NCBI RefSeq assembly: GCF_018143015.1 | Contig: NC_054755.1 | Span: forward strand, 14,638,778-14,702,777 | DNA from: Lytechinus variegatus | Taxonomy: Eukaryota > Echinodermata > Echinoidea > Temnopleuroida > Toxopneustidae | Length of the DNA stretch: 64,000 nt | Direction: 5' to 3' | Notes under the pieces: model-generated | The model's input: the letters and a program-made list of their open reading frames with translations, nothing else | What the model was told of the DNA's origin: nothing | Databases searched by the model: none | Program-made: the position numbers and the translations under genes | Shown: positions 9,638-35,183 of the stretch, piece by piece | Numbering within the stretch: the stretch's first letter is position 1 | Layout of the letters: every line of letters starts with the position of its first letter

Positions 9638-9686
9638 TAATCGCTAGAGGGTATTCATTTGTCTCGCAATCTACTATGGTCAACAA

Positions 9687-9776
9687 GGAAATTCGTGATC
9701 ACTCTCGCAAAAAGTGTTCACTGGCTTTCTAGGAAATTCGTGATCACTCTCGCAAAAAGTGTTCACTAGCTTACAA
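9687..9776. repeat. 45-bp tandem duplication inside Penelope arm
   Basis: GGAAATTCGTGATCACTCTC begins at 9687 and again at 9732, giving two units of 45 bp that differ mainly at their ends (ACTGGCTTTCTA against ACTAGCTTACAA). The same duplication is present inverted in the right arm (about 11814-11903), so it predates the arm inversion. The unit border carries the stem III and stem I side of the hammerhead-like fold. Confidence 0.8.
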
Positions 9777-9819
9777 GTTCACGAGCTTTCGAGTGCCGCT
9801 GCAACTCTTTATCAAGTGA
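9763..9819 (-). ncRNA. Hammerhead-ribozyme-like fold in Penelope arm (left)
   Basis: Read on the minus strand: stem I strand TCAC, core TTGATAA(A), stem II GAGT..ACTC with a GC-GC extension, GAAA, a short stem III GCT..AGC, then CTA and the closing stem I strand GTGA. This is the order of a type I hammerhead, with predicted cleavage after CTA. The usual core CTGANGA is replaced by TTGATAA, which would swap the C3-G8 pair for U-A, and there is one extra A before stem II. Hammerheads are known in Penelope-like element arms, which raises the prior. Activity is unknown. Confidence 0.5.
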
Positions 9820-10005
9820 CAAAGAATGTCCGATATCGTACTCTATTTATACTAATCTCCAAGACCGTACGCACAAACGCGAGAACAATGGGTGGGCACT
9901 GATCCGTTGTGTGATTGGTCAGGAGTTATGCAAATAAGCCGGGGGTATATGCAAATACGCCGTGGGTCGGCAATATGCAAATGAGACCAAAAATTGGCGG
10001 GCTCG

Positions 10006-10743
10006 CTAGTTTCCCGTGGGCGGGGGTTGACTAGCTGAGCGGTCCCTCGATCGGGGCCGGGAACGATCGGGTCGGCGTGCACTGCCAGGTAAGGGGGTAT
10101 TGTGCTGTCGGATGGTTCGCATCCAGAAATCGGGGATGTCGATCCCGCTGTCTCTGTTGAAGTTGTTAGGACAAAGACGTATACTAATAGCCTCCTTAAT
10201 CCTGCGTGTATACCAATGTCTTTCTTTGGCAATGCAATGTACACCCTCCCAATCTGGGTGGTGTTGCTTCTCCCAAGCATGTTCTGCCACCGCGGACGTG
10301 TCGGTTCGCTGTAACCGAACATCGCGCTTGTGTTCAGAAATGCGTGCAACTATCGGTCGGGCTGTCTCTCCGATGTAAGACCCGTCACATCCCTGGCAAG
10401 GAATGTTGTATACTACGCCATCACGTCTGTGATCAGGGATAGGGTCTTTGGGGCGTACAAGCTGTTTGCGTAAGGTGGTGTCCGAGCGGAAAACCGTTCG
10501 GATACCGTGACCTTCTAATCGGCGTTTAAGTTGTTGTGAAAGGCCATCTATGTATGGCAAGACTGTACAAGTCTTGAAAACCTTCTGATCCCTTGGTGGT
10601 TGTTTTTTCTTGAAAGTGTTCTTGATAAAACGGCGTGGGTAATAGCCGTTGCTGTATAATGCGCCACGTATGTGTGCTCTTTCCTTCGGGAGTTCAGGCG
10701 GCCCGGGTGAGTTATGATACGTGCTGCTCTGTCGAACAGACAT
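10006..10743 (-). pseudogene. Penelope-like GIY-YIG endonuclease domain (broken element)
   Basis: C-terminal part of the element. The segment VVYNIPCQGC..SYIGETARPI..RISEHKRDV matches the GIY-YIG nuclease pattern used by Penelope-like elements, including the CxxC found just before the YIG half and the catalytic Arg in the following helix. Later residues (AEHAWEKQHHPDWEG) match the conserved H..H segment. This domain nicks target DNA for target-primed reverse transcription. It reaches almost to the left arm at 9857. Confidence 0.88.
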
Positions 10744-10782
10744 TTAACAAGACCCTTCTTGACCGATTTGTCGTGATGAGAA

Positions 10783-11725
10783 TCATATGGTATAAGCCAC
10801 TCCGTATTGGTCTGTATGAGTGGGCTTGCGGTAGACAGAGGTGGAAAGTTTCCCGCCCTCGTGTCTTTGGACTAGCGTATCAAGGAATGCTAATTTCCCT
10901 CCTTGTTCAGTCTCCAGAGTGAACTGGATGGACGGTTGCTGGCTGTTCATGTATGCGAGTAGGCTGTCTGCTTCGGAATTATTTACAATTATGAAAGTGT
11001 CATCGACGTATCTCTTCCACACCCGCGGGCGGCATGTGGAAGGACACTTGGGCAAAGCGTTCTGTTCAAATCCTTCCATATATAGGTTAGCCACAACCGC
11101 TGAGACTGGGCTACCCATTGCTGCTCCTTCTGTTTGCTCATAGAAAGAGCCTCTGTACAGAAAATATGTGGATCTGAGGACGAACTCGAGGAGTTCGGCT
11201 ATTTGTTCAGGCATAAGTGTGGTACGTTCTGATAATGTGGGGTCGGATTGCATGCGTTGCAGGGCCGTACTGCATGCGCCCTCTATCGGTACGTTAGTGA
11301 AGAGGGAGACTACATCAAAAGAGATCATGGATTCTTGTTCGTTAATTGTCTGCTCCGATGTGAATTCAGCGAATTCACTGGAGTTGGTAACCGTGTGTTC
11401 TGAGCAGTTAGTGAGAGGGGACAGGATGTCCGCCAGGTACTTTGATAGGTTATAGGCAAAAGAACCTATGCATGAAACTATTGGTCTGAGAGGTATCCCG
11501 GGTTTGTGTATTTTGGGCAACCCGTATATTCTAGGTGGCTGTTTCTGTATGGGCTTTATCTTTTTGTATGTAGCCTCATCTAGAACTTTGTCTTTCTTTA
11601 GTGCCAGTAACGTACTGGTCAGTTTGCGACACATTCGATCTGTGGGGTCTTTCTTTAGCATTTTATACGGACCAGAGCTCAGAAGCTCGGTCATTTTGTC
11701 TTCGTAGGAGGTACTATCTAGAATG
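10783..11725 (-). pseudogene. Penelope-like reverse transcriptase domain (broken element)
   Basis: The minus strand encodes a PLE reverse transcriptase region. Recognisable blocks in order are PRIYGLPKIHKPGIPLRPIV (fingers), SFDVVSLFTNVP (catalytic motif A), GAAMGSPVSAVVANLYME (motif B) and RYVDDTFIIV (YVDD catalytic motif C), then KLAFLDTLV and YRKPTHTDQY. These are characteristic of Penelope-type rather than LINE or LTR reverse transcriptases. The sequence runs straight from the inverted arm into the fingers region, so the family's N-terminal part is absent. The GIY-YIG domain follows downstream on the same strand. Confidence 0.9.
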
Positions 11726-11769
11726 ATTAGAGATTAGTATAAATAGAGTGCGATATCGGACATTCTTTG

Positions 11770-11826
11770 TCACTTGATAAATAGTTGCAGCGGCACTCGA
11801 AAGCTCGTGAACTTGTAAGCTAGTGA
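11770..11826 (+). ncRNA. Hammerhead-ribozyme-like fold in Penelope arm (right)
   Basis: Partner of the left fold, in the inverted arm and therefore on the plus strand: TCAC (11770-11773), core TTGATAA (11774-11780), stem II, GAAA (11799-11802), stem III GCT..AGC, CTA, and GTGA (11823-11826). The stem II base next to the core differs from the left copy, which weakens the closing pair. It lies antisense to the reverse transcriptase. Confidence 0.45.
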
Positions 11827-11952
11827 ACACTTTTTGCGAGAGTGATCACGAATTTCCTAGAAAGCCAGTGAACACTTTTTGCGAGAGTGATCACGAATTT
11901 CCTTGTTGACCATAGTAGATTGCGAGACAAATGAATACCCTCTAGCGATTAT

Positions 11953-12640: not shown

Positions 12641-12803
12641 AAGTGTCAATAGACTTCTAAAACTAGCATCATTTACGCGTCATTGCCTAGCAACTCATCA
12701 TTAAACGCATACTGGCTTGGATGGAACGCATCACTGGTATCTCTTTGCGCAACCATTCTTTGTGCGCTTTATTCTGATTGTTTCATGTAATTGTGACGTC
12801 ACG

Positions 12804-13595
12804 ATGTCTGGGAAGAGAAAGTCGTCGAAAAACAACTCTGGTGATAACGAAGAGACGAATGAGAGCTATCTTCTATCACTGATCAAGAATGAGCTAGGGA
12901 AACTTTCCAATTCCTTGAATGCTAAGTTGACCGTCTTGGAGAAGTCTATCGACAGTATACGAGAGGGACAAAGTAGCATTGTCAACTCGCTGTCGTTCCT
13001 CAACGAGAAATTTGAGGAAATGAAGTTGAAGGCCGAGAAGATAGAAAAGGAAAACAGAGAACTGAAGGAACAAAACATCTGTCTTCAGAAGAGATTCAGT
13101 GAGTTGACCTTCCAGCTTAACGAACTTGACCAGTACCACAGAAGAGTCAACTTGGAGGTGGCAGGTGTACCAGAACGACAGGGCGAGGTTCCTGAAAGGA
13201 TCGTACTTAATATCGCGAAACACATCAGCCCTGAGCTTGCAGCATCCGACTTCGATGTGGTTCATCGGCTGGGTTCCAAACGCCAAGCTGATAACAAAGC
13301 CCGCCCAATCATCGTGCGATTCACCACAAGACGAGCTCGGAACATCATGTACGATGGGAGGAGGAAGCTGAAGACTCTCTCCACAAAGGATCTTGGATAC
13401 AACAACGATGGCAAGATCTACCTCAATGAAAACTTGATCGCTTCCACTAAGGAGCTAATGAAAGATGTCAAAAAGGCCCGCCGAGATGCCGGATACAAGT
13501 TCCTGTGGACCCAGAATGGCCGAATCTATGTAAGGAAGGATGAGAAGTGTCAACCCATCATCATTCATTCCAGAGAGGACTTTTCTAAGCTGTAG
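12804..13595 (+). CDS. LINE ORF1 protein (coiled coil + RNA-binding region)
   Basis: A 263-aa protein starting at MSGKRKSSKN; the frame is open further upstream but without a good ATG. Residues 1-20 are basic to acidic and disordered. Residues about 20-110 form a long coiled coil (KLTVLEKSID..KIEKENRELKEQ) expected to trimerise. From about residue 110 comes the RRM-like core DQYHRRVNLEVAGVPER and then a C-terminal domain with VVHRLGSKRQ and ARPIIVRFTTRRARNIMY, typical of L1-ORF1p-like (Transposase_22-type) chaperones. It would bind LINE RNA in ribonucleoprotein particles. The frame is intact, which suggests a young copy. Confidence 0.88.
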   Translation: MSGKRKSSKNNSGDNEETNESYLLSLIKNELGKLSNSLNAKLTVLEKSIDSIREGQSSIVNSLSFLNEKFEEMKLKAEKIEKENRELKEQNICLQKRFSELTFQLNELDQYHRRVNLEVAGVPERQGEVPERIVLNIAKHISPELAASDFDVVHRLGSKRQADNKARPIIVRFTTRRARNIMYDGRRKLKTLSTKDLGYNNDGKIYLNENLIASTKELMKDVKKARRDAGYKFLWTQNGRIYVRKDEKCQPIIIHSREDFSKL

Positions 13596-13964
13596 AAGGA
13601 CTATCCATGTTTTTCCATTTTCCAGTATTCTTTTTATTTCTTATGAAATTCACGTCACAAAATTTTTCGCATCGATCAATATTTGTGTTATTTTCCGTGG
13701 TATATTTTGCATTCTTTCACTGCCCTTTCAATAATGTTTCAATACCAGACATTTCATGGAGGTCATTTTACTTATTTTTGTGTGCAAATATTCTTCATCG
13801 ACCGTTAATAATTGTATCAAATAATCTTTATTTTGTTAACTATTACAACTGCAGTATTTTTCAAACTCGAATTTGGGGTCATGACGGTATCAAATCTAAA
13901 AGATGCTTTATATGCTCAGCTTACAAAGATTTTGATTTAAAATGGCAATATATTCTATTTCATA

Positions 13965-15725
13965 ATGGTGGATAATATGCGTGATTTCCCATTTTATCAT
14001 CTGAATAATGATGATTTCTTATTACTAAATCATCCAAGTCAGGATAAAAGCAATATGATCTCAAATCATCATACTCCATTTGATAGATTTTCTACTGATA
14101 TTCTTACAAATAATTTTGATGAACTTCAAGTTGAATTCGATATTCATGATAAAGCATACAATCTTTCCTCTTCTTCATATTATACAGAAAATTCATTCAA
14201 AGACTATGCTAAATTGATTGGAGAAGATGATGTTTTTATTTTGCATTTGAATATAAGAAGCGCTAACCAAAACTTCGAGAAATTACGATTATTATTAGAA
14301 AATACACAATTTGCCAATCCCCCAATCATTGCTCTTACTGAAACTTGGTTCACGGAAACACTGAATTCCTTATGCACAATCCCGAATTATGATATTGTTA
14401 TAAACAATAGGAAAAATAAAATTGGAGGTGGACTAGCATTATATATTCCGTCTTCATTTGATTATGCAATTAGACATGAATTTGAATATATGAATGATAT
14501 CATCGAATCCTTATTTGTAGAAGTAAAACTTCAAAAAGATAAGAAAACTCTAATAGGTGTCATCTACAGACCTCCTCAAACTTCTTGTATAGAAGATTTT
14601 TTACTTGCTACTAATGAACTTTTGCAAAACGGAGAATTGATAAATAACAATTGTATCATCACTGGTGATTTCAATATTAATCTCTTGACCAGTAATCACT
14701 CTGCAACAAACGATTTCCTTGAATTGATGTTAACTTCTACTTTTTTGCCGATTATTTCTAGACCAACCCGTATTACTGATCATTCTGCTACGCTTATAGA
14801 TAATATATTCTGTAACTCTCACCCTCTTCCGAAAGCTGGCATTGTAACGACAGACATATCCGATCATTTTCTTATTTTTACCCATATCCAAACAATGCAA
14901 TCACTCGCAAAAATGGAAAAGAAATATAGGATCTGTCGTAACTTTAGTGACAAAAATATTGAACGCCTCCAAGAAGATTTAAGCTCTGTTGATTGGTCTG
15001 ACGTTTATAACTCGAAAGAGAATGTCGATGACTCATTTGACATATTTTTGAAATATTTCAATGATTGCTTAGATTCTTGTGTTCCTTTAAAGAAATATCG
15101 AAATTACGACTATAAACGTGTTCCAAAGCTACCATGGGTTTCAAAAGTGATGTTAAGGTCTATCAATCGGAAAAATAATCTGTATGTTTCTTATATATCA
15201 AATCCAAATGATGTTTCACGGAATAGATACACGTCTTATAAAAATACCTTAACAACTACTCTCCGAATAGCAAAAAAGAGGTTTTATTCAGAAAAATTAC
15301 AATCATATAAAAACGACCTTAAAAATACATGGAAAACAATAAATGGGGCTCTAAACAAAATTAACAAATCTAGTGCTGTTAATAAATTATGTGTAGATGG
15401 AAATATGGTTGAAGATACTCATTCTATAGCAAATGAATTTAATTCATATTTCTCTCAAATTGGACCAAAGTTAGCTGGAAATATTATCCCTGTAGAAAAT
15501 TCGTTTAAGGACTTTTTGGACAAACAAAATGATAATTCAATATTTCTTACTCCAGTTCATAGAGAAGAATTACTTGAGATTGTATTTAATTTGAAAGCAG
15601 GAAAGACACCCGGATATGATGGCATTACAAATAAAGTATTGAAAAACATTATACATTCTCTTGCTGATCCCTGCTTCATATATTTAATTTATTATTGCAG
15701 CTTGGCCAGGTCCCAAAGAAGATGA
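13965..15725 (+). CDS. LINE ORF2 part 1: APE endonuclease and start of reverse transcriptase
   Basis: The frame opens at MVDNMRDFPF. An exonuclease-endonuclease-phosphatase domain is seen from about residue 85: LHLNIRSANQNFEKL, IIALTETWF (catalytic Glu), GGGLALYIPSS, LIGVIYRPP, ITGDFNINLL (catalytic Asp/Asn) and DISDHFLIF (catalytic Asp-His). This domain nicks target DNA. A linker follows, then the first reverse transcriptase block KAGKTPGYDGITNKVLKNI near the end. The frame stops at 15725, while the reverse transcriptase continues in another frame from about 15695. One frame change therefore interrupts ORF2, most simply a single-base deletion in this copy. Confidence 0.88.
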   Translation: MVDNMRDFPFYHLNNDDFLLLNHPSQDKSNMISNHHTPFDRFSTDILTNNFDELQVEFDIHDKAYNLSSSSYYTENSFKDYAKLIGEDDVFILHLNIRSANQNFEKLRLLLENTQFANPPIIALTETWFTETLNSLCTIPNYDIVINNRKNKIGGGLALYIPSSFDYAIRHEFEYMNDIIESLFVEVKLQKDKKTLIGVIYRPPQTSCIEDFLLATNELLQNGELINNNCIITGDFNINLLTSNHSATNDFLELMLTSTFLPIISRPTRITDHSATLIDNIFCNSHPLPKAGIVTTDISDHFLIFTHIQTMQSLAKMEKKYRICRNFSDKNIERLQEDLSSVDWSDVYNSKENVDDSFDIFLKYFNDCLDSCVPLKKYRNYDYKRVPKLPWVSKVMLRSINRKNNLYVSYISNPNDVSRNRYTSYKNTLTTTLRIAKKRFYSEKLQSYKNDLKNTWKTINGALNKINKSSAVNKLCVDGNMVEDTHSIANEFNSYFSQIGPKLAGNIIPVENSFKDFLDKQNDNSIFLTPVHREELLEIVFNLKAGKTPGYDGITNKVLKNIIHSLADPCFIYLIYYCSLARSQRR

Positions 15726-17077
15726 AAATAGCTAAAGTTATACCCATTTTCAAGAAGGGGGACCAATTAATTACTAGTAATTATCGCCCAATATCTTTGT
15801 TAACTTCGTTCTCAAAAATTCTTGAAAGGATCATTTATAAAAGGACAGTTGCTTTCCTTAAGAAATATAGTATTATATGTGATAATCAATTTGGTTTTAG
15901 AGAAAAACATAATACAACTCATGCTATATTGACATTAATAAATAAAATATCTACTTCTTTTGATAATTCTGATCATACTGTAGGATTATTCCTTGACTTC
16001 TCAAAAGCGTTTGACACAATAGATCATGAAATACTGTTATGTAAGCTATCAAATTACGGTATCAGAGGGACAGCTTTACAATGGTTTAGGAGTTATCTTA
16101 CTGATAGAGTTCAGTTTGTTACAGTAAATGAATCAGAATCTCCAACAAGGCCAGTTTCCTGTGGAATTCCACAAGGTAGTATTCTTGGCCCCTTGTTATT
16201 TATACTTTATGTTAATGATATGAAAAATTCATCTCATGTTCTCTCATTTATTCTCTTTGCTGATGATTCCAATATTTTCTATACACACCATGATCCACAT
16301 GTACTTGTGAGCACTATGAATACAGAATTTAAAAAAGTAACAAACTGGATTAAAGCCAACAAATTGTCACTGAATCTGCAAAAAACTAATTATATGCTTT
16401 TTAGTCATTCATTGAAACATCTACCGCATCAAATACTTTTAGATAATACTGAAATCAAAGAAGTGCAAACAACAAAATTTTTAGGTCTTACTATTGATAA
16501 CAAGCTTACGTGGAACGCTCATATCAACAATACTTGCAAAACTGTGTCAAGAAATATTGGAGTCATCAATAAGCTTAAATACGTCCTACCAGCACAGGCG
16601 CTATCCATGTTGTATTGTGCATTAATTCTACCATATCTTAATTATGGAATTCTGGCATGGGGTAATGCCTCTCAAACGAGACTAAATAAAGTCTTGCTAC
16701 TTCAGAAAAAAGTACTGAGAATAATATGCAATATGTCCTTTAGAGCTCATACGGATGAATTGTTTCGTCAGAAACGTATCCTTAAAATCAATGACCTGTA
16801 CCGCTTGCAACTATTCCAATTCATGTATCAGCTAGATAGAAATAGTGTACCTAATGTCCTACAAATGAAATTTATGAGAAACAATACTTTACATTCATAT
16901 AATACGAGACAATCAAATGACTATCACTTACCTAAAAGTAAAACAGTATTTTCTAGCAAAACTGTATTTTTCACAGGACCAAAACTCTGGAATTCTCTGG
17001 ACAGAGAAATGAAAGAGGCAGCTAATCTTATACGATTTAAATTACTCATCAAAAAATTTCTCCTGAATTCTTATTGA
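15695..17077 (+). CDS. LINE ORF2 part 2: reverse transcriptase
   Basis: Continues the reverse transcriptase in a shifted frame: KKMKIAKVIPIFKKGDQ and NYRPISLLTSFSKILERIIY (fingers), QFGFREKHNTTHAI, FLDFSKAFDTIDHEILL (motif A catalytic Asp), GIPQGSILGPLLFILYVND (motif B), FADDSNIFY (FADD motif C), LSLNLQKTNYMLF and FLGLTIDNKLTWNAHI, then a C-terminal region with KVLRIICNMSFRAHTDELF and TGPKLWNSL typical of Jockey/CR1 LINEs. The domain runs to a natural stop. The overlap with part 1 is only about 30 bases, and no codon start fits, so it is one protein broken once rather than a third ORF. Confidence 0.9.
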   Translation: MQLGQVPKKMKIAKVIPIFKKGDQLITSNYRPISLLTSFSKILERIIYKRTVAFLKKYSIICDNQFGFREKHNTTHAILTLINKISTSFDNSDHTVGLFLDFSKAFDTIDHEILLCKLSNYGIRGTALQWFRSYLTDRVQFVTVNESESPTRPVSCGIPQGSILGPLLFILYVNDMKNSSHVLSFILFADDSNIFYTHHDPHVLVSTMNTEFKKVTNWIKANKLSLNLQKTNYMLFSHSLKHLPHQILLDNTEIKEVQTTKFLGLTIDNKLTWNAHINNTCKTVSRNIGVINKLKYVLPAQALSMLYCALILPYLNYGILAWGNASQTRLNKVLLLQKKVLRIICNMSFRAHTDELFRQKRILKINDLYRLQLFQFMYQLDRNSVPNVLQMKFMRNNTLHSYNTRQSNDYHLPKSKTVFSSKTVFFTGPKLWNSLDREMKEAANLIRFKLLIKKFLLNSY

Positions 17078-17541: not shown

Positions 17542-20500
17542 TCATATCTTGTGTTTGTTAATTTCCTCGAAGTATGGCATGGATGCTTCAGCAAGCTTGA
17601 TGACATCTGGTGCCAGACTGCCCCGACACGGAGTTGGCTTAGGTGGTAGAAAACCACTTGAGCTAATTGCCGTTTCATAGAAGGTGTCAAAGCCATCTTT
17701 CGATGCCTTAAAATCTAGAGAGGCTTCCCATTGAAGAAGGGCATCACTGTACGGAAGACCGGTCAGGTGACAGAACTTCTTCAGCACCTCAGCAGGTTTG
17801 GCCAACAGATCATCAGTGTTGATGACGACCGCGTTGGGATCTACGTTGCCACGAATATACTTCCAGATATCATGAATGCCTCTAAAGAACTCACCGGCAT
17901 TTAAGACAGGATCATCCTTTTCCAGATTAAATGTCTTCACAGATTCACTAGTCAACAAACCAGTTTTCAGCAGATGGATGGTCATCGCTTTCTTGTAGGA
18001 GGTCAAAACTTTGTACGGATCTCGAATTAGGAAGACATGTTTAAAACCTGCTGGCAAGTAATCTCTTGATTTCTCATCAGGAAAAGCGAAGTAGCCCTCC
18101 TTAACCAATACGCATTTACTTGCGGACGATTCTATTTTCCGTTTCACATTGCCATACCTATAGAGAAAGAAGAGTGGCGACATAAAGATCTTGTAAATTA
18201 AAAACTACATTGTAAAAAAGGGGGGAGGTGTTAAAGTTGACATAAGTGGTGTCCCTAGAGGACCGCACCCAAGCTGCGGTTAGCGGTGATAAAATTACCC
18301 CCTGACTGATCATACCACCGTAGAGTGTATAAATATGCAACCGAGCATGTTGTATTAATATCAATAGGTGTTTTAACAAACAACAATATTTATAACACCG
18401 TAGTCGAATGACTGGTGTTGCCTTCTACTATGTTTGTCATGCGCTAATCGACACCCTGTTTTTTGTATGTACCCTTGAAATATAGACGCAGTGATACCCT
18501 TCTACTTTTTGTCACCTTCCGTACCGTTTTCACCATCTTCCTTCTCGTATTGATTCTCGCTTGACCTTTCTACACTATACCATTTCTGTTTGGAGGCGTA
18601 GCGGGGCAAACATTTTGAGGGGTTGAGTTTCAACGTGGTGCAGTATTTTTGGAAAGAGTTTCAAGAAGTTGAATGGAGCAAGTCACAAAATAATCAACAT
18701 TTTTTTAACATGCATAGTTTGACTTTGCGAATGAAAAAATGTTTACGTTCTCACCAGCTGGTAACTTTCAGGATTTCAGATTTTATCAAAAGTTGAGGTG
18801 ACAATTTGTCAAAACTTACAAGCTCGTTGGTTTTGATAGTCAGAGAAGATGTCTGACTGTCACTAAGGCAATTGCCGGATACGATAGACTATGTCGTACA
18901 AAAAAATTCGACGAGTATTTTTGTGAAACGCTCCCCATGAGACTAATCGATTTCTCCGAGCCAGGTATCGATAAATTCACTCTAAATCCCGAAATATCTC
19001 CACAACTTCTAAACCGTCGCTTTGACGTCACACGCCACCTTTCGCAAACCTCTACAACGCGACATTAGAGTCCGGTATTACAAAGGTTAACGATTAATCA
19101 TAGACTTGATTTTCTAAATTACTTGTACATTATAGTCAATACAATCGAACTTTGTGTTACAGGCTCTATACATTTGTAGATCTTGCTTTTCGTGTGCAAA
19201 ATTCTTTCATACTATACCAGCACGCCATGCCATTTGCCTGCCTGAGCTCGCGGCGGGACTGTAATATCATGACTATCATGACTCCAGCTGGCTGGAGACA
19301 TGCGAAATGTAGAATATGACATGGATAAGAAAGTGGATTTTCAAACAAATCGAGTGCATATTGAGGAAAAACTTACTGAATTCAGACTTAGATATAAATC
19401 ATTACAGTCCATCTAATCGATGTTGCATCTAATGTGGATTATTGGTGGATTACTGGCAATAGATTCCATGGGTCAGATCACCTCTCCAACCGAAACCTTT
19501 TTGCATGCGTTGATATGTACTCGGCATTATGTATTTACTTTCCCCCTAAATGTGTGATTAGATTCAAATTTTCGGGGGAACCACTTCCTTTGACGAGTAG
19601 ATACCAGGCGCGACCATGGGGTTTCAAAAAGCACCATAAACAAGGGAAGCAAGTCTTTTCCAGATTATGAAAATGCATCCCTTAACAAGAAGTTGGCTTG
19701 TGAAACCCTACAAGTACTGGAAATATACCCCTCTTTTCAGTATTTCAAACATCGTTTTTGAAACCCTAATAACATTACATAGGCCTACACGTAACGTACT
19801 ATGCACTCTTTCCCTGGTCGTGGTATCCACTCTCCAATGGAAGTGGCCCCCCAGGCGGCCTCTCGAGCTCTGAAAGGAACCAAATGTAGCTCTGGAGAGT
19901 CGTCCTAAATCGGATATATCGCTGTTACCATAGTATTTTGCACACGAACCGCAGATTGATGTTTCCGTTGCAGATGTGAAAGCTAAACAAAATCCTCATG
20001 TCACATAATTTAAGTTGCAGGACAGCCTTTTACGACGGGCCCAAAAGTCTCTTCCAAAATCATTTACCGTCGTAAAAAAACGTTTGCGTTCTCTAACAAA
20101 AGGTCGGGACTGATACGTCTTGACGCATTCGTAAAAGTCTGAAACATGTCCACAGTCGCGTTGACGTCTCTAAGACGTCTCCAGTAGATGCAGCCACGTG
20201 TCAGAAACAGAAAATGTCCGCATCTGATGGAGACGTCTCGGGGGCAAACAGTCTTTAAAAAATCGAATATGTTCAGAATTCTTTCAACTAATCGGGGACT
20301 TCTTAATTTTCAGAGGACATTTCTGCAAGTAGCAAAAGCGAACGTTGTCACAGCAAAAAATGTGTCGTAAACCGGCTTAGGACTTAGGGGGACTGTTCCA
20401 ACACCATAAACATTTTTATACTTCGGTGTTAACTTTACAGTGTTAATTCAACAACCAAGAGTGCTATTGCAACAATATTTGGTGTTACGATGTATTTTTC

Positions 20501-26003: not shown

Positions 26004-26555
26004 ATGCAAAGCTTTTCACACAACTTGGAAGCAACTTGGATCGAATTTTCTCCTGACAAGGATAATAAATTAATTGTCGGTTGTCTATATAGGCCTCCTG
26101 ATGCCAACGGCGTATACTCAGAAAAAATACTAGATACAATAGAGAAAATAAGAAATGTGAATGAAGAACTGATTCTCGTTGGTGATACAAATATTGATTT
26201 TAGAAATAATGATTTACAACCCAATAATCTTATCGCTAATATTGAAAACTTATTTCTCCTCACCCAACTGGTTGATAAACCAACAAGGGTTACTCTTACG
26301 TCATCGAAATGCATTGATCATATTCTGAGTTCGATTCCAAATAAACATAGTAAGTGTGATGTAGCAAACATTTCACTAAGTGACCATTACTTGATATATA
26401 CATGTGTCAATTTTAAGAAACAAACTAAGGATCATACCGTCAGGCGTTTTAGAGATTATAAACATTTTAATGAATCTGATTTTATCGAAAGGTTGAAAAA
26501 TACCAAGTGTTTCGATGTTATCGGTAATAATGTATTAAAGGACTTGTGTGTTTAG
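26004..26555 (+). pseudogene. LINE endonuclease fragment
   Basis: Encodes ATWIEFSPDKDNKLIVGCLY, RPPDANGVYSEKIL, ELILVGDTNIDF, CIDHILSSIPNKHSK and ISLSDHYLIYTCV, the second half of an APE-type endonuclease including the GDTNID and SDH catalytic blocks. The first half (GGGVCMYINRN) lies at about 25.61-25.65 kb, separated by an inserted LINE 3' end. After a stop near 26553, the linker AWIQWKDAFLEISNEFAP continues until the MITE insertion at 26.66 kb. Confidence 0.82.
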
Positions 26556-26661
26556 ACAGCATGGATACAATGGAAGGATGCTTTTCTAGAAATAAGTAAT
26601 GAATTTGCTCCAATGAAAGAAGCAAGAATGAAAAAGCGATTTAATCCCTGGGTAACCCCAG

Positions 26662-27254
26662 ACAAGTCAAACCCCCCAAAAAACTTGATTTGAATAAAAA
26701 GAGAAAAATTCAACAAGCATAACACTCACAATTTCATCAAAATCGGATGGAAAATAAGAAAATTATGGCATTTTAAAGTTTCGCTTCATTTCACAAAACA
26801 GTTATATGCGCATCTCGGTCGGTATGCAAATGAGGAACTGATGACATCACTCACTCACTATTTCTTTTGTATTTTATTATATGAAATATGAAATATTTTT
26901 CATTTTCTTGTCATTGTCATGTGAAATGAAGTTTCATTCCTCCCTGAACACGTGGAATTCCATTATTTTAACATTTTGTTCTTCAAGCAAGGAGGTCATA
27001 ATCGTCAAATTCGTAAAAATTGAAATATTGTATAATTCAAACAATAAAAAACAAAAGAAACAGTGAGTTAGTGAGATCATCGACTCTCTCATCTGGCTCG
27101 TTCATATAACTATTTTGTTAAAAATAAGCGAAACTTTGAAATGTCATAACTTTCTTATTTTACATCCAATTTTGATGAATTTTCAGTATTGTGCTTGTCT
27201 GATTTTTCTCTATTGATTCAAATCAACATTTTTCTGAGGTGGACTTGACCTTTA
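26662..27254. mobile_element. Family A MITE, copy 2, inserted in a LINE
   Basis: The left end is degenerate (GACAAGTCAAACCCCCC) and the right end reads GAGGTGGACTTGACCTTTAA. It shows the same inverted arms and centre as copy 1, with TCATCAAAATCGGATGGAAA and its partner. It interrupts the linker of the old LINE between NPWVTP and LIHRRDYLKR, so the insertion is later than the LINE. Confidence 0.82.
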
Positions 27255-27568
27255 ATCTTATTCATAGGAGAGATTATTTGAAACGTAAATTTTATACTTC
27301 TAAATGTCAAGAAACTCGAAATGAATATCGGAGAATAAGAAACAAAATTACTTGTATGATAAGGGAAAAGAAAAAAGAGTACTACAATAATATATCTCAT
27401 GAACACAATAATGATCCTAAAAAACTATGGAATGAGTTACAAGCTGTAACAGGCAACAATAAATATGAGAATAACACATGTGAGGTTGACTGTGATGAAA
27501 TGAACAATCATTTTGCAAACATTGGTAAAATGATAGCAAACACTTTTCCTGAAAAAAGATTTGAATGA
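27239..27568 (+). pseudogene. LINE linker between endonuclease and reverse transcriptase
   Basis: Immediately after the MITE the LINE frame resumes with LIHRRDYLKRKFYTSKCQET, RRIRNKITCMIREKKKEYYN and KKLWNELQAVTG, the basic linker typical between endonuclease and reverse transcriptase in Jockey/CR1 LINEs, and continues to MNNHFANIGKMIANTF. The first few residues of this frame come from MITE sequence. Confidence 0.75.
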
Positions 27569-27661
27569 AAACATCCTGAATGTGTTTATTCTTTTGATTT
27601 TAGAAATGTTGAGATAAACAAAATTTTAAAACATCTTACTCACCTTGACAAAAGCAGTAAG

Positions 27662-28875
27662 GTGGATGTTTTAGGCCTAGATACAAAATTATTAAATATC
27701 GCAGCACCATACATATGTGATTCTCTAACCCTAATCTACAATAAAAGTTTATCTTCTGGCGAAATACCCGACGACTGGAAAATAGCACGAACAACCCCGG
27801 TTTATAAAGGCAAGGGTTCAAAGAAAGATAAAAAAAATTACAGGCCTATTTCTGTTGTGAGCCATGTTGCTAAGATCATCGAAAAAGAGGTTCAATCCCA
27901 ACTATTGAAATACTTAAATGAAAATGACATGATCAATGTCGACCAGTCGGCCTTTTTACCTAATCACTCTACCTCTACTAGTCTACATCGTATACTTGAT
28001 GATTTTTATGAAGCCATAAATGAGAGTGAAAAGGTAGCTGCTTGTTTCTTAGATATTTCCAAATGCTTTGATTGCATCGATTATGATTTACGGATTTATA
28101 AATTAGAAAAGTATGGTATACGTAGCAATCAGCTTAAATGGTTTCAGAGTTATATTGCTAATAGAAAGCAAACTGTACAACATCAAGGTAAACGATCACA
28201 GATGAGGAACCTTACTATAGGTATTCCCCAGGGTAGTGCCCTTGGCCCCACCTTTTCCTTATCTTCATTAATGATATTTCGGAGTATGTTACAAATGGTT
28301 CATGCAATATATTCGCTGATGATGTGGTTGTTTATGTTAGTGGAAAAAATAATACCGATGCAAATGCAAAATTACAGGCAAATATGGTTGAAATCAATAA
28401 ACGGTATGTTAATAACAGACTTCGAATTAATAAAAATAAAACTAAGGTGATGCTATTAAAATCAAAATCCTTAAATGAACTTAATGTTTATATTGAAGGG
28501 CACAAGATTGAGCAAGTCAATAACATCAAATATCTTGGACTCATGATTGATGATAAGTTGAAATGGAATGCTCACACTAATATTCTATGTAAATCAGTCG
28601 CATACAAAGTCCATATTCTTGCCAAAGTTAGTTAATTTGTTAACTCTAACTTATTGAATATATTGTATAAATCCACAATTCAACCATGCTATGATTACGC
28701 ATGTTCTGTATGTTCTGTATGGGGAGTTTACAAAAAGAAATTGTTGAGAATACAAAAAAGAGCAGCACGAATTGTCACGAAAAACTTTGATTATGAGGAG
28801 TACTTATCTATTAAATACTCAATCCTCTTCTACCTATTCTGGTTTACTGTCTTTTTCAGGACTACACGCATTTAA
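27662..28875 (+). pseudogene. LINE reverse transcriptase (dead copy)
   Basis: Blocks in order: WKIARTTPVYKGKGSKKDKK, NYRPISVVSHVAKIIEKEV, ACFLDISKCFDCIDYDL (motif A), IGIPQGSALGPTF (motif B), then in another frame the NIFADDVVVYVSGKNN block (motif C) at about 28.30-28.35 kb, LRINKNKTKVMLLKSKS and IKYLGLMIDDKLKWNAHT, and finally LLNILYKSTIQPCYDYACSV and LLRIQKRAARIVTKNFDYEE at 28654-28875. At least one frame change, between motifs B and C, and a stop near 28635 interrupt it. Confidence 0.85.
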
Positions 28876-33833: not shown

Positions 33834-35183
33834 ATGGCAGATCACCAAAATTCACCAGTCAAGATTTTGGCCTGGGTTTTACCAAGAACAATATCGACAG
33901 CGTTAACCAAGTGTTTAAGTAGCTTGGAAGACATAGAGATTTGTTTCGAACTATTCTTGTACTCGAGTTTTGTGAGGAAGGTATACGAGGCGCAGACTGG
34001 TGACGACATGCCTATGAACTACGAGGGGAATGAGGAAAAGGTACGAGAAGCAATAAAGCGTTATGGCAGTCTAATAAACACTGATCTGGTTCCCGAAAGA
34101 GTTGTGTAAGTATGAACAGTTTTACATGTTGGGGGCGATGGAACCCCCACCCCCAAAAAGAACAAGAAAAACCCGAAGGGGTAATAGAAAGAAAAGGAAA
34201 AAATAGGGTGAAGTATGATATTATTTTCTGAATCATATATAAGATCTTATCACAAAGTTTTTTTTAAATAAATAATAGTTTATTTTTCCCTCGATTTCCT
34301 CGCTCGCAGCTTACATGTATTTGAATAGAAATTTTGCAGATTGCAGATTGGTTTTATTACTCATCGAAAATTAAAAATCAACTGTAATTTATAAGTTGAA
34401 AAGCGTACATCTAATCGATTAGAATTGAAATCTTTGACATTTAGCAAAATAATGTGTTTAGGAGATCATTTGATCAAAATAGTAACCTTGATGTGTATAT
34501 AAATGTAGGTGTAACTTATTCAATAATCCTGTTACAGGTATAGTGACGTGAACAAGGCAATCCAATCATCGGAGAAGAAGTACATCTTCGTCAAGGAAGC
34601 CTACATGGCATTTCCAGATGACAAATCCCGTCAATACTTACCAACAGGATTCAGGCATGTTTTCCTCATCAGAGAGCCTTACAGACTGTTGGCATCCTAC
34701 AGGGACGCCCTCTACCGGCATATGACGAACGTCGGCATGCGGTCAGGTGACTCGGTCGACAAAGAGGCCTTTGACATGGAACACGACGACCCGATTACAA
34801 ATACGAGCGAGTTCTACAGAAAGAACTTAGAATTCTTCAAGTACGTCCGTGACAACCTAGATCCCAACCCGATCGTCATCAACACTGATGATCTATTGGC
34901 CAACCCTGCTGAGATGCTGAAGAAGTTCTGTCACTTGACAGGTCTTCCGTACAGTGATTCCCTTCTTAAATGGGATGAATCTTCGGACATCACCAAGACC
35001 TGGAAGACAGCGAGCGAGGATATCATTAACTTGTCAATAGCCTTTTATGAAACTGCGGTATTTTCTGGAGGGTTTCATCCACCAAAACCCGCTGCTCCAA
35101 TCGAGAAGATTACACCAGATGTAATAAAATTAGCCAATGCTTCCATGCCATACTATCAGGAATTAAATGAGTATAAGATATAA
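33834..35183 (+). CDS. P-loop sulfotransferase-like protein, gene 2 (two exons)
   Basis: Exon 1 is 33834-34105 and exon 2 is 34538-35183. Donor GAGTTGT|GTAAGT and acceptor CCTGTTACAG|GTATAG join in phase 2 to give 305 aa starting MADHQNSPVK. Blocks: VLPRTISTALTKCLSSLEDI (phosphosulfate-binding-type loop), MPMNYEGNEEKVREA, KYIFVKEAYMAFPDDKSRQY, HVFLIREPYRLLASYRDA (3' phosphate-binding type), IVINTDDLLANPAEMLKKFC and ITPDVIKLANASMPYYQELN. It is collinear with gene 1 and has the same intron position and phase. Both are complete from ATG to stop. Sulfuryl transfer from PAPS is the family's usual reaction, but the acceptor cannot be told and the Lys-to-Arg change in the loop leaves activity to be shown. 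Confidence 0.87.
34106..34537 (+). other. Intron of sulfotransferase-like gene 2
   Basis: A 432-bp GT-AG intron with donor GTAAGTATG and a pyrimidine-poor acceptor ATAATCCTGTTACAG. It interrupts the coding sequence after the second base of a Val codon, at the position homologous to the intron of gene 1. Confidence 0.85.

Follow-up and report, generated by a model that had tools for sequence, protein, structure and literature searches.

A Penelope-type hammerhead motif with a known, rare core exchange, U3-A8, in two Penelope-like element families of Lytechinus variegatus

The stretch of Lytechinus variegatus DNA analysed here (64,000 nucleotides, contig NC_054755.1, positions 14,638,778 to 14,702,777; hereafter the window) carries, in two inverted arms, the order TCAC-TTGATAA-..-GAAA-..-GTGA (minus strand 9819-9763; plus strand 11770-11826). 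The stems, GAAA, U4, G5, A6, A9 and a UH of a hammerhead ribozyme are present, and the C3-G8 pair is replaced by a U3-A8 pair through the TTGATAA core of both arms, as an earlier note on this DNA had observed. Few features of hammerheads are as conserved as the 3-8 pair, and G8 participates in catalysis. The questions raised by this locus are whether the motif is a hammerhead by descent, at which site it would cut, and whether its core belongs to a functional or to a decayed ribozyme.

The two arms bound a copy of a Penelope-like element (PLE) on the minus strand at 9638-11952, which consists of a reverse transcriptase (RT) fragment, a C-terminal part and the inverted terminal-repeat arms. The RT fragment (10783..11694, minus strand, 303 aa) matched Pfam RVT_1 with an E value of 3.8e-09, in line with the assignment to PLEs made in the earlier note. 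The C-terminal part (10006..10743, minus strand) lies in a different frame from the RT. By eye we take it to be GIY-YIG-like; a Pfam search of this part gave no match, GIY-YIG included. RVT_1 and inverted terminal repeats are present among the PLE features, and GIY-YIG is recognised by eye only. Arm 1 (9638..9862, minus strand) is the 3′ terminal repeat of the element and is sense to the ORFs, whereas arm 2 (11727..11951, plus strand) is an inverted copy that joins the element near 11727/11728 and is antisense to them, so that the motif occurs once in each orientation relative to the RT, as had been claimed. Because the arms form a 225-nt inverted repeat that is 99% complementary, they count as duplicates of a single sequence rather than as independent evidence. 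A longer copy of the same family (family A), L033, contains an 830-codon frame, the N-terminal part of which is missing from the window copy. Positions 9638-11728 aligned to L033 in a single 2091-nt stretch (98%), and 11727-11952 aligned in reverse to its 3′ repeat (226 nt, 96%). From these matches we conclude that the window copy is 5′-truncated and broken in frame, and that an inverted repeat end caps it where the 5′ part is missing. Elsewhere in the window, frames at 12717-17077 and 26004-28450 (plus strand) resemble ORFs of non-LTR retrotransposons (endonuclease and RT by eye), and two look-alike frames at 17542-18183 (minus strand) and 34548-35183 (plus strand) resemble sulfotransferases, also by eye.

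In arm 1 the motif can be read at 9779..9819 (minus strand) as TCAC-TTGATAA-A-GAGT-loop-ACTC-GAAA-GCTC^GTGA, with a stem III of two pairs and no loop (A15.1-U16.1 and G15.2-C16.2) and a predicted cut after CUC, between 9783 and 9782. The register in the earlier note (9763..9819, minus strand) has instead a 4-bp stem III, AGCU/AGCU, closed by a 12-nt loop, and a cut after CUA at 9767/9766. This second site (AGCTA^GTGA) is 16 nt downstream of the CUC site, and arm 1 parses in both registers. A strict parser without a spacer failed to detect the motif, and one extra A was therefore recognised between the core and stem II (TTGATAA-A-GAGT..ACTC); the stem II order given previously had overlooked it. 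The second copy, in arm 2 (11770..11810, plus strand), is antisense to the ORFs and has its predicted cut at 11806/11807. Here the first stem II pair is lost, with U.C in place of G-C (T for the first G), and no parse with a 4-bp stem II was obtained in this arm; G occupies that place in 41 of 42 family A copies. The claim of folds in both arms thus holds for the order of the motif but not for two independent intact folds, since the arms are duplicates and stem II of arm 2 is damaged. Two 45-nt tandem units (9686..9775, minus strand; arm 2 counterpart at 11812-11901) each contain an imperfect copy of the ribozyme 3′ strand, AAGCTAGTGAAC and AAGCCAGTGAAC. One enzyme strand is followed by three candidate substrate strands, the third of which has CCA; under the NUH rule, CCA is not cleavable.

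Related elements were sought with the window RT in its own genome (all whole-genome searches covered the 870-Mb assembly in 33 contigs). The 130 scored matches were 39 to 100% identical and fell into groups: the element's own family mostly above 79%, others at about 60-67% and about 42-49%, and one match at 39%. At all 11 loci examined from families B and C (RT identity 62-65%), the terminal repeat carries a canonical hammerhead, CTGACGA-A-..-GAAACGTC, and at 10 of these loci (L054 included) it lies 3′ of the RT. At another 17 loci the sequence 3′ of more distantly related RTs was examined; CTGANGA..GAAA was present in 15 of them, and no hammerhead was found in L071 or L076. Canonical cores in the PLE layout gave 965 matches over the genome, compared with 27 for a backward control. 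Because sister PLE families carry canonical hammerheads in their terminal repeats, in the same layout, we consider the window motif a hammerhead by descent, and its type I order, as the earlier note had given it, was upheld. By comparison with these families the homologous register is the one with a loopless stem III and CUC, and the H, B and C sequences compared showed no second substrate strand. The previously proposed stem III and CTA cut can be parsed in arm 1, but they do not correspond to the homologous site, and CUA is at most a second site peculiar to family A.

The position of the hammerhead relative to the ORF varies. The ORF stop lies within the hammerhead at the B and C loci examined, the ORF of L083 (family H, described below) ends at the TGA of the core, and that of L033 ends 192 nt upstream of the hammerhead. 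In L051, L056 and L083 (families B, C and H), coding sequence and ribozyme thus share bases. A further hammerhead-like sequence, CTGAAGA-A-GACG..CGTC-GAAAATTC-GAGG with an AATT palindrome, occurs in L005 around position 421 (minus strand) outside any known element context. Viral contigs contained no relative of the RT; a loose stem II filter retained 17 of 116 pattern matches in them, and by eye none of the 17 had stems I and III.

We found 515 genome copies of the family A 41-mer at up to 3 mismatches, and the backward control gave 0. When copies with otherwise exact flanks were considered, one had C3, five had a changed A8 (3 G, 1 T, 1 C) and none had C3-G8. U3-A8 cores preceding GAAACGTC gave 62 matches in the genome versus 78 for the backward control, so most of these matches are what chance would be expected to produce. 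Five of the 62 nonetheless form a second family, H, with TTGACAA-A-GTTG..CAAC-GAAACGTC (CAAT in one copy). Four of the five lie near RT matches that are 63-65% identical to the RT of family A, and stem I is kept in four of the five, the partial copy L084 beginning at the core. Families A and H have U3-A8 and stem I in common; stem II differs between them at three of its four pairs and stem III at its second pair, every difference being compensated. When 320-nt stretches of the two were compared (flanks of 150 and 129 nt), the only low-E match was the 44-nt hammerhead (5e-6; the next E value was 0.28).

A nine-sequence alignment, which has L005 as row X and omits the stem II loops as well as a single stem III loop base of family D, had 98.0% of its 99 pair cells paired, and 9 of its 11 pairs had changed on both sides. 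None of 500 shuffles reached this pairing or covariation, and one reached the number of doubly changed pairs; sliding the partners reduced pairing to 20-59%. Thus the stems are kept in related arms. The covariation of positions 3 and 8 that the earlier note had proposed to look for was also present: the pair is C-G in seven sequences, U-A in two and mismatched in none. The RT tree had 15 rows, of which three were A and one was H (L097 and L098 were labelled C3-G8 by family, not from their hammerheads). A branch with support of 94/99, present in 95% of 200 bootstrap trees, had A and H together on one side; H was represented by a single long-branched row whose placement the program called unsure, and the partial copy L084 was left out. 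Since A and H share one side of this branch, a single exchange suffices, and the U-A state is probably one event rather than repeated covariation. These comparisons suggest one exchange of C3-G8 for U3-A8 followed by compensated change in the A/H lineage. All related sequences came from a single genome.

Variation among family A copies, which were chosen by similarity, was low within the motif: minor letters made up 3 of 1745 inside it versus 97 of 7730 outside, and 0 of 41 sites inside had shared variants versus 10 of 184 outside. This contrast is mostly due to outside sites that vary among subfamilies.

Upstream of the motif is a TATA box, TATAAATAG, at 9843..9851 (minus strand), 32 nt from stem I (arm 2: 11738-11746, plus strand). 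A survey that included L033, L083, L051, L056 and L061 showed that families A, H, B, C and D2 each have one or more copies with a TATA box 31-33 nt before stem I; the E, F and D copies examined lacked it, as did two of three H copies. Its placement is as if transcription began at the ribozyme. A cluster of transcription starts was considered and rejected, the 5′ ends of family A copies being scattered.

How readily such a layout arises by chance was gauged with a parser that demanded GAAA, UH, four or more pairs in each of stems I and II, and Watson-Crick pairing between 3 and 8. In 600 dinucleotide-shuffled windows, read on both strands, it returned 67 parses in the closed register and 4 in the loopless one; 65 of the windows yielded at least one parse in either register (an earlier shuffle run had given 1 parse in 40 windows). 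The Rfam scan of the window and arms gave no hammerhead match. The covariance-model search proposed in the earlier note was thus negative, but RF00163 and RF00008 found nothing over the whole genome either (73 and 68 candidates scored) or in control genomes. As the models are silent genome-wide despite the 965 canonical PLE layouts, their silence carries little weight. An explanation by chance resemblance, to which the shuffled parses and the Rfam result would lend themselves, is in our view hardly credible: the layout is shared with the canonical hammerheads, the motif sits in a terminal repeat and covaries, and both the A-H match and the nine-sequence alignment contradict it. Strong evidence for a hammerhead by descent comes from the loopless register and from homology. 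Because of the 67 closed parses in shuffled windows, the closed register alone is weak evidence.

The closed register could nevertheless be the working form in family A, as a monomeric type I ribozyme with a 4-bp stem III that cuts after CUA on a duplicated substrate strand. The CUA site pairs perfectly, AGCT+H+GTGA was found there in 41 of 44 family A copies (versus NUH at the CUC site in 44 of 44), and the two registers had equal best energies when enforced (-10.3 kcal/mol each). In the free ensemble of a 70-nt family A RNA with both sites, stem I had a probability of 0.001 at CUC and 0.57-0.99 at CUA; the active stem II was below 0.01 in this RNA, and so were stems II and III of the closed register in the free ensemble. 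Set against the homologous CUC site and the lack of a visible second substrate strand in the H, B and C sequences, these figures leave the closed register as the working form unlikely. We are similarly doubtful that family A has two cut sites, the ancestral dimer-dependent CUC and a CUA with closed stem III derived from duplication of the substrate strand; if it does, the second site would free the ribozyme from dimerisation.

Alternatively, the family A motif could be a relic, its activity having been lost with the core change while the family spread without it. Insertion by the Anolis element PAc in vitro, in the experiments given in PMC11167929, proceeded whatever the hammerhead mutations, a result consistent with this explanation. 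Family A RNA also folded no better than shuffled sequences (z of 0.01 for 49 nt, 0.10 for 70 nt and 0.38 for arm 2), in contrast to canonical family C RNA (z of -2.09). Moreover, hammerheads with unpaired or wobble 3-8 combinations exist in the genome, so decay of the core does happen: the single-change cores C3.A8 and U3.G8 gave 50 and 88 matches, with backward controls of 35 and 38. By eye, however, these lists look like a mixture of chance matches and dispersed members of C-G families, and no family fixed for C3.A8 or U3.G8 was recognised in them. A and H, by contrast, both have U3-A8 and retained their helices through compensated changes, which makes loss of function an improbable account.

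We therefore favour, as likely, a PLE-type minimal type I hammerhead of the terminal repeat in which C3-G8 was exchanged, probably once, for U3-A8. Both features of that type, a reduced stem III and a location in a PLE terminal repeat, were found, and the palindromic AGCU of stem III is compatible with dimer cleavage. In tandem intact elements, a transcript spanning a pair of terminal repeats would contain two hammerheads that could pair via the self-complementary stem III. Each would then cut after CUC, directly before the 3′ strand of stem I, and we infer a role in processing to unit-length RNA. By analogy with published work on other hammerheads, U3-A8 may be expected to support activity in these elements. 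In the truncated, frame-broken copy of the window the motif would be a passenger. If this reading is correct, families A and H, with their compensated helices, would constitute a natural experiment on the 3-8 pair for which the C3-G8 relatives in the same genome would serve as controls. Hammerhead searches tied to CUGANGA miss such high-copy hammerheads.

De la Pena and Flores reportedly described in 2001 an extra nucleotide in the core of a viroid hammerhead, placed after A9. Our sequences resemble that case in one additional nucleotide before stem II and differ from it in that the extra A or C is present in every sequence listed, and by eye in family D as well. Minimal type I hammerheads of PLEs are said to have been described by Cervera and De la Pena in 2014 and by Lunse et al. 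in 2017. The passages on PLE hammerheads in PMC7761336, PMC6155905 and PMC7229834 portray them as minimal type I ribozymes, usually without helix III, that possibly cleave as dimers and have no known role. As outlined there (PMC7761336, PMC6155905), they are like the motif studied here in terminal-repeat location, type I order, reduced stem III and tandem copies, but have C3-G8 rather than U3-A8. Family A has an AGCU palindrome with a CUC site, whereas the other full families have ACGU with GUC.

The hammerhead of Anolis PAc (Poseidon) bears on the 3-8 pair directly. According to the sections of PMC11167929 that concern it, C3G and G8C each abolish activity and the double mutant partly restores it, cutting occurs only with the protein, and hammerhead mutants are without effect on insertion in vitro. 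The PAc ORF begins at stem II, so that the cut falls 26 bp within it (PMC11167929), whereas in L033 the predicted cut precedes the first Met by about 120 nt.

The exchange itself is already known. The section of Perreault et al. (2011, PMC3088659) on this pair reports several natural hammerheads in which C3 and G8 have covaried to U3 and A8 and, citing Przybilski and Hammann 2007, describes U3-A8 ribozymes as active in vitro. The earlier note's description of a less described variant core therefore does not hold for the core as such, but no PLE family or clade fixed for U3-A8 was found in the literature searched, whose reach stopped short of the main PLE-hammerhead papers, so that absence from print is not proven. 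The compensated exchange in families A and H is the same as that of the natural hammerheads in Perreault et al. (PMC3088659), whose U3-A8 section names no PLEs; here it is found in two PLE families, one of which has hundreds of copies.
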